NCBI GenBank assembly: GCA_019638485.1
Contig: JAHBTP010000001.1
Span: forward strand, 1,240,001 to 1,304,000
DNA: 64,000 nucleotides
Source of the DNA: Ferruginibacter sp.
GTDB lineage: Bacteria; Bacteroidota; Bacteroidia; Chitinophagales; Chitinophagaceae
Reading direction: 5' to 3'
The first letter of the stretch is position 1. Each line of letters opens with the position of its first letter. The translations under genes and the position numbers were made by a program. Positions 25,419 through 26,404 of the stretch are shown here, piece by piece. The notes beneath the pieces are model-generated. The model was not told the origin of the DNA. It made no database searches and saw nothing but the letters and a program-made list of their open reading frames with translations.

Positions 25419-25806
25419 GAAAAAAAGTAAGGATATCAGGCTACTGTACTTAATGTTCCGCAACAGATTGGTATTTGTACTGATTAAAGTGGAAGTAATT
25501 TTATTAGCAATTGAAAAACGTGTATTTAATTTTTCTTAAGCCCTCTGCAACCCGGCAAAACTCAGCTATCGGTTGGAGGTAAAAAGAAATTATTTACCGC
25601 TCACCAATGGCAATCAGGAAAAATAACTCTCACACAGATATGGCAAATTTTTACTATCACTTCTAATCCGCTCTTCTCTGTGTTTCAAAGTTAATAAGCA
25701 GAAACGCTATTACTTATGAGTTACGAGCTATTAGTTCTTGGTTAAGCGGGTAGGATTAGGACTCCAAGTTGATAAAAAACATTTTCGTGTATCCGTAGTA
25801 GTTATG
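25419..25806. other. Intergenic DNA, no gene seen
   Basis: About 390 bp with stops in all frames, no RNA gene and no clear hairpin terminator. Its last 50 bp shade into a degenerate unit of the tandem repeat that follows. Confidence 0.5.
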
Positions 25807-26082
25807 CTCCATAAATACCGAATTTGAGGTATTGTTTCATATTTAAAATAATCCGAACTTTGAATTGGGGTGGGAAACGCAGTTTCCCCTTTTTTGAAAT
25901 ATACCCCATAAAGTACCTAATCGAGGTATTGTTCCCTGTTTTCATAATTCCGAAATTTGCTTTAGGGCGGGAACGCCAGTTCCCCATCCGTTTGGGGTAG
26001 CACCTACAAAGTACCGTGATGAGGTATTGTCCCGTGTTTTAAAAAATGCGAAATTTGAATAGGGGATGCGGGTAGCGTCCCC
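25807..26082. repeat. Tandem array of about 97-bp units, each with two hairpins
   Basis: GAGGTATTGT recurs at 25826, 25923 and 26021, a period of 97-98 bp. Each unit has hairpin A, AATACC/GGTATT in unit 1 and AGTACC/GGTATT (one G-U) in units 2 and 3, and hairpin B whose stem differs but still pairs: GGGAAAC/GTTTCCC (25872-25888), GGGAAC/GTTCCC (25969-25984) and GGGGATGC/GCGTCCCC with one G-U (26062-26082). Between them lie conserved CGAA and TTTG words. Changed stems that still pair point to selection on structure. It lies in a 1-kb gene-free gap between prfB and an ompA-like gene. No coding potential survives: the one open frame (25802-25987, minus) simply runs through the units. Confidence 0.75.
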
Positions 26083-26404
26083 AGGCAGCAATACAAAAAA
26101 CGGAACCTACATAATTACATCTTGCCTTTGCCAGCCGCACAAAAAAAATATACCACAAAACAACAAGGCGCTTCACCTACTCAAGAAATATACCACACAG
26201 TATCTTGAGATGCCCGCATTATTTATTAAGAAAAAGGTGAAAACCGGGCTTGTATCTATAAACATGCTAAACAAAATATCACCCAACGCCATTAACAATT
26301 TTATGTCTAAATTAAAATCCCCTTCTTTAATAAGCTATCCATTACTCTATTATTCATTTTACACATTCTTAACAGTAATCACTTTCTTAGCCTAAACAAT
26401 GAAG
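26083..26404. other. Intergenic DNA before the ompA-like gene
   Basis: About 320 bp. A plus-strand open frame (26066-26395) exists, but it begins inside the repeat array, has no promoter or family resemblance and ends in the promoter of the next gene, so I do not call it. Nothing else is seen. Confidence 0.45.

Follow-up and report, generated by a model that had tools for sequence, protein, structure and literature searches.

The tandem array described here belongs to a large family of intergenic repeats in its own genome. A new RNA gene is the less likely reading; the array most likely consists of self-spreading DNA. The family is probably a non-autonomous, modular interspersed repeat, restricted to one lineage, that contains promoter-like modules and operates in the manner of the BOX and BrickBuilt elements. 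It is apparently previously undescribed; a search of the literature on Chitinophagaceae for a described family of such repeats gave nothing relevant.

The window array and its family

The window (the whole 64-kb stretch of DNA analysed) contains three tandem units in the 1.2-kb gap between prfB (PF03462/PF00472) and a divergent OmpA-family gene (PF00691), the location given in the initial annotation. As reported there, GAGGTATTGT recurs at 25826, 25923, and 26021, in steps of 97 and 98 bp; TRF assigns the array a period of 97 (score 213). On the + strand, the element opens with a leader, TTCGTGTATCCGTAGTAGTTATGCTC (25784–25809), which forms its left end and is conserved ahead of the first unit in most arrays of the family, the flanks being otherwise unrelated. 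Unit 1 (25810–25905, +) combines a type I head with the hairpin of type II; relative to I-II-III-III-IV arrays such as that of locus L056, one period has been deleted. It is followed by unit 2 (25906–26002, +; type III) and by unit 3 (26003–26085, +; terminal type IV), the whole being a shortened I/II-III-IV form of the L056 array.

The dyad initially annotated as hairpin A is present as TACC-N8-GGTA in unit 1 (25816–25831, without strand assignment), where we read it as operator-like, the combination of dyad and TTG also occurring in promoters of relatives. In units 2 and 3 it takes the form TACC-N7-GGTA (25914–25928 and 26012–26026) and shows the A-T to G-T change noted earlier. A promoter-like pair follows on the + strand: in unit 1 (25832–25862), TTG (25832–25834), 20 nt, and GAACTTTG (25855–25862); in unit 2, where dyad and pair together span 25914–25959, TTG (25929–25931), 20 nt, and GAAATTTG (25952–25959); and in unit 3 (together 26012–26057), TTG (26027–26029), 20 nt, and again GAAATTTG (26050–26057). 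The arms of hairpin B are likewise as first described, all on the + strand: GGGAAAC-gca-GTTTCCC (25872–25888), which with the CTTTTTT after it (to 25895) resembles an intrinsic terminator; GGGAAC-gcca-GTTCCC (25969–25984); and GGGGATGC-gggta-GCGTCCCC (26062–26082).

The window units are far beyond chance expectation because the same units recur about 160 times in the genome. Searching the window's own genome (G000; 2.76 Mb, 7 contigs) with them by blastn returned 91 matches, and a profile iterated over the genome loci recovered 159 units in 41 arrays at about 30 intergenic places. All 41 arrays are intergenic, which bears out, for this genome, the earlier suggestion of a Bacteroidota intergenic repeat family; in being non-coding and dispersed through intergenic DNA, the arrays resemble MITEs. 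The unit period is mostly 95–102 bp, and the arrays follow a grammar in which a leader (TCGTNTATNCNTAACCGTTATGCTCC) is succeeded by type I, by types II, VI, and III, and by a terminal unit, usually of type IV, V, or VII. Type I (GGGGGC-GTA-GCCCCC) is the first unit in 24 of the 41; type II carries GGGAAAC-GCA-GTTTCCC with a T tract, and type III GGGAAC-GCCA-GTTCCC. Array lengths differ by whole periods, and the arrangement of start module, repeatable middle, and end module is that of BOX elements. Relative to the downstream gene, arrays lie on the same strand in 14 cases and on the opposite strand in 13, that is, at random; such indifference to genes is expected of a parasitic repeat.

Several further features were observed around the arrays. 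At nine loci (L033, L034, L035, L041, L044, L046, L049, L050, and L051), the array is preceded by a conserved stretch of about 450 bp that appears not to code for protein and that lies mostly between two same-strand arrays. L031 (6464–7752) holds four near-identical tandem copies of a larger element of about 402 bp, each with one type V unit, and the arrays at L034, L035, L042, L051, and L052 adjoin genes for very large proteins (1000–2000 aa or more). Protein coding was rejected for the units and for the ~450-bp spacer, since the frames there are short and inconsistent. An interpretation of the leader TAACCGTTATGC as an integron attC site was also rejected, as neither a paired attC site nor cassette genes were seen.

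Hairpin pairing and promoter-like geometry

The initial annotation had taken both hairpins to covary and had suggested a structured RNA, perhaps a new non-coding one, or a protein-binding array. Covariation holds for hairpin B, both between unit types and inside type III. Of the distinct units, 57% form a hairpin B of 6 bp or more, as compared with 9% of dinucleotide shuffles; the RNAalifold prediction includes it, two of its pairs having changed on both sides, and type III contains 8 double compensatory cells (GGGAGC/GCTCCC, GAGAAC/GTTCTC, and others). For hairpin A the claim fails: RNAalifold does not predict it, and no pair has changed on both sides over 43 units, in an alignment that displaces the type I units by one position. 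A 5-bp hairpin test at this region, which needed three G-C pairs and was unable to score TACC/GGTA, was set aside. Hairpin A is better read as a putative binding-site dyad.

That hairpin B stays paired while its letters change would favor a family of structured non-coding RNA genes. However, stem mismatches comprise 14 G-T and 16 A-C, near-equal numbers that show no strand bias to G-U and lend no support to RNA-level selection; hairpin A, as noted, does not covary. Rfam covariance models gave no match in the window, and RNA folding of the three window units singly was not significant against shuffles (z −1.4, −1.3, and −2.4). Units of the related genome G039 (described below) hold the geometry rather than a stable perfect hairpin, and the arrays have no gene-strand bias. 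We consider an RNA gene family highly improbable: the mismatch counts, the Rfam result, and the random strand of the arrays count against a new structured RNA. The binding array suggested as the other possibility survives in recast form, with GAGGTATTG as a predicted operator–promoter-like module common to promoters of the genus.

In the unit design, TTG abuts the dyad (TACC-N7/8-GGTA) and is succeeded by 20 nt, a (G/T)AnnTTT(G/A) box, and the GGG-hairpin. Within TTG-N20-(G/T)AnnTTTG, the spacing is exactly 20 in 108 of 119 scored units. Set against the sigma-A type Bacteroidota promoter (−33 TTG, −7 TAnnTTTG, 19–21 nt), the units agree in spacing, but the −7 box mostly begins with G rather than T (CGAnnTTTG in 80 of 113 units), which puts most copies one base off consensus. 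The T is present in type VI units and in several units of G039, which have a consensus-like box (TATCTTTA/TAACTTTA). The dyad is placed at about −41, the TTG at −33 and ahead of the −7-like box, and the GGG-hairpin at the expected start point. Class II activators bind near −41, where the unit dyad is centered.

Promoters of the genome's own genes use a comparable pair of TTG and −7 box. In upstream regions, TAnnTTTG occurs 43 times (14.8 expected) and TTG-N19-21-TAnnTTTG 8 times (0.7 expected), while GAnnTTTG occurs once (6.1 expected). ACC-N7/8-GGTATTG-N19-21-TAnnTTTG was matched 45 times across the 90 genomes of the genus, as compared with 4 times for the reversed control, and 25 of 30 examined loci are intergenic. 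Among the genes downstream are porV, a type IX secretion gene (in three genomes), and LuxR-type/NarL response regulators; a matching dyad also lies ahead of recA in G000 (L199, about 1508–1525) and in G031. Loci of this class in relatives include L221, L227, L229, L206, L215, L224, L158, and L162. The unit geometry copies a predicted, apparently undescribed promoter class of the genus that the analysis brought to light ahead of response-regulator genes and porV; recA, too, is preceded by the dyad.

The arrays might accordingly be read as sets of regulated promoters, in which each unit would be activator-dependent, start at the GGG, and make a short hairpin RNA or titrate a regulator; the dyad would be bound by a host regulator, of the NarL/LuxR type or similar, ahead of the −33 TTG and a weak −7 box. 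The exact geometry, the promoters with which it is shared in this genome and across the genus, the dyad ahead of recA in two species, and the consensus-like boxes of type VI and some G039 units all favor this, as does the U-tract following 21 of 26 type II hairpins. However, most units have G at the first −7 base, a form for which regions upstream of genes show no enrichment. A hairpin at +1 also lies too near to terminate a functional RNA in the ordinary way, the stems have no G-U bias, and array strand is random with respect to genes. On balance, regulated-promoter arrays appear unlikely as the primary account.

A further reading combines promoter and mobile repeat. The dyad is common to the porV, recA, and response-regulator promoters, and the family could be a selfish element built from a host operator–promoter module, each of its roughly 160 copies carrying a predicted site for a two-component or stress regulator of the host. 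The element would then be transcribed, expose its hairpins, and spread in dependence on host signaling, to which the level of free regulator would be tied in return. We regard this as a decidedly long shot.

Distribution among relatives

Related genomes were covered in two ways. A blastn search with the repeat, of the kind proposed in the initial annotation, covered 93 genomes of the genus and 296 of the family; it yielded short chance matches only and missed G039. Pattern and profile searches (90 genus and about 390 family genomes; one genome per species) succeeded for this one other species, to which a profile built from 43 units pointed. The pattern TTG-N19-CGAANTT-N6-GGG occurs 68 times in G000 and 16 times in G039 (control 0 for both), as compared with 0–4 times in the other 88 genus genomes and 0–5 in the family sample. 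Judged by these matches, the many-copy design is present in only one other species, G039, among the 90 genus and about 390 family genomes. Pattern searches of phages, plasmids, viral contigs, and GTDB gave no matches, or scattered ones in chance-level numbers.

G039 has 27 units in dispersed tandem arrays of its own, with a spacing of about 157 bp. Its unit comprises the dyad CCCCCATCCGGGG, TTG, 19 nt, and CGAACTTTAAAATGGG; spacing and box have thus been kept while the letters of dyad and hairpin have changed. A further G039 array, on C67, has ~88-bp units with the hairpin GGGGAC-gaca-GTCCCC. In G035, which has the closest ompA homolog found, the prfB–ompA neighbors lie ~350 bp apart without repeats, as compared with 1.2 kb here; by this comparison of neighborhoods, the site equivalent to the window array is empty in the nearest relative. 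A different dispersed intergenic repeat, GTACAAGAGTGCGACGCCAATGAAGTTCAATAATAG, was observed in the relative G002 (C1 180349, 284823, 304298, and 362076).

These data add to the Bacteroidota, the phylum indicated by the promoter type and by the type IX secretion genes of the relatives, a large, apparently undescribed repeat family whose unit design is kept in two species while its dyad and hairpin sequences change. The strict 20-nt spacing and the conservation of the dyad in two species exceed what a passive repeat needs, and this counts against the mobile-repeat reading that we prefer. The family offers a testable case of a mobile repeat with a host-type regulated promoter module in each unit.

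Candidate mobilization and known systems

Under the preferred reading of a mobile modular repeat, units would multiply by unequal recombination inside arrays, and a transposase supplied in trans may at one time have carried copies of whole arrays to further sites. The promoter-like module might either let the element be transcribed or represent its origin. Ends typical of IS elements or MITEs were rejected: the longest inverted match between leader and end averaged 5.4, equal to shuffles (5.4), and target-site duplications averaged 6.0 as compared with 5.8 in shuffles, right ends being uncertain. Lacking inverted ends and target duplications, the arrays give no direct sign of a transposition mechanism.

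A HUH/RAYT-type single-strand enzyme is the leading candidate mobilizer, since such enzymes act on hairpins and the same core is present in a RAYT array of this genome. The genome has two Y1 transposases (PF01797; C2:159748 and C4:4965), and both of these RAYT-like genes lie beside or inside local hairpin-repeat arrays. The tandem hairpin arrays at the Y1 genes (L084, 1885–2661; L085, 920–3108) were observed to have 33-bp and about 50/98-bp periods. The RAYT array on C4 holds the repeat core TTG-N19-CGAAATTT-N6-GGG, specifically TTG-N19-CGAAATTT-AAATCGGG; it scores 13.1 bits against the repeat profile, as compared with at most 11.3 in 200 shuffles, and full units are absent there. This core is a possible lead to the mobilizer, not proof of it. 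RAYT genes occur in 68 of the 90 genus genomes, and hairpin arrays of about 50 bp were seen to flank many of them.

These observations raise the possibility of a REP/BIME-type family made directly by the genome's RAYT (TnpA_REP), and a REP-type GT[AG]G foot does precede many type I and type II hairpins (19 of 25 and 19 of 26, respectively). The foot is nevertheless found in only 7 of 36 type III hairpins and in none of types IV–VI. None of the arrays of the family contains or adjoins a transposase gene, the two Y1 transposases lying elsewhere, and the repeat profile found no match in the flanks of 30 genus RAYT genes except that of G000. Direct origin from the L085 RAYT repeats was rejected, as the REPs of L085 are themselves not dispersed and have the core alone in common with the family. 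Direct production by a RAYT is, in our assessment, rather doubtful.

Compared with known systems, the mobile modular repeat that we favor has several partial counterparts. The Correia elements (NEMIS) of Neisseria are, as here, dispersed, hairpin-bearing, promoter-carrying intergenic repeats. They have 26-bp inverted ends (PMC3049150) and a single unit, unlike the tandem modular arrays seen here. REP/BIME/REPIN sequences and their RAYTs are likewise intergenic hairpin repeats, with RAYT genes accompanied by hairpin arrays and a GT[AG]G foot, which part of the units here also have; by contrast, the present units are several times longer and stand in direct tandem rather than inverted pairs (PMC6006769, PMC3116915, PMC3733652). 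The arrays of this family are moreover dispersed without an adjoining RAYT, and the foot is not general.

The BOX elements of Streptococcus pneumoniae and S. suis, as far as their description in PMC3049150 goes, share with the present family start, repeatable middle, and end modules, hairpins, and a burst in one lineage; they have inverted ends and target duplications, unlike here, and that description gives no promoter-like geometry in each unit. The likeness is one of working, drawn from description rather than sequence and across phyla; the same account interprets BOX and its like as mobile parasites, from positional evidence of a comparable sort. The BrickBuilt MITE of Porphyromonas gingivalis (PMC4596501) is, like the present family, a species-restricted intergenic element of the Bacteroidota, with a leader, tandem repeats varying in number, a tail, and internal promoter elements. 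BrickBuilt has a 23-nt unit, terminal inverted repeats, and 19 copies, whereas the family described here has 97-nt units, several hairpin types in a fixed order, no inverted ends found, and ~160 units (PMC4596501).
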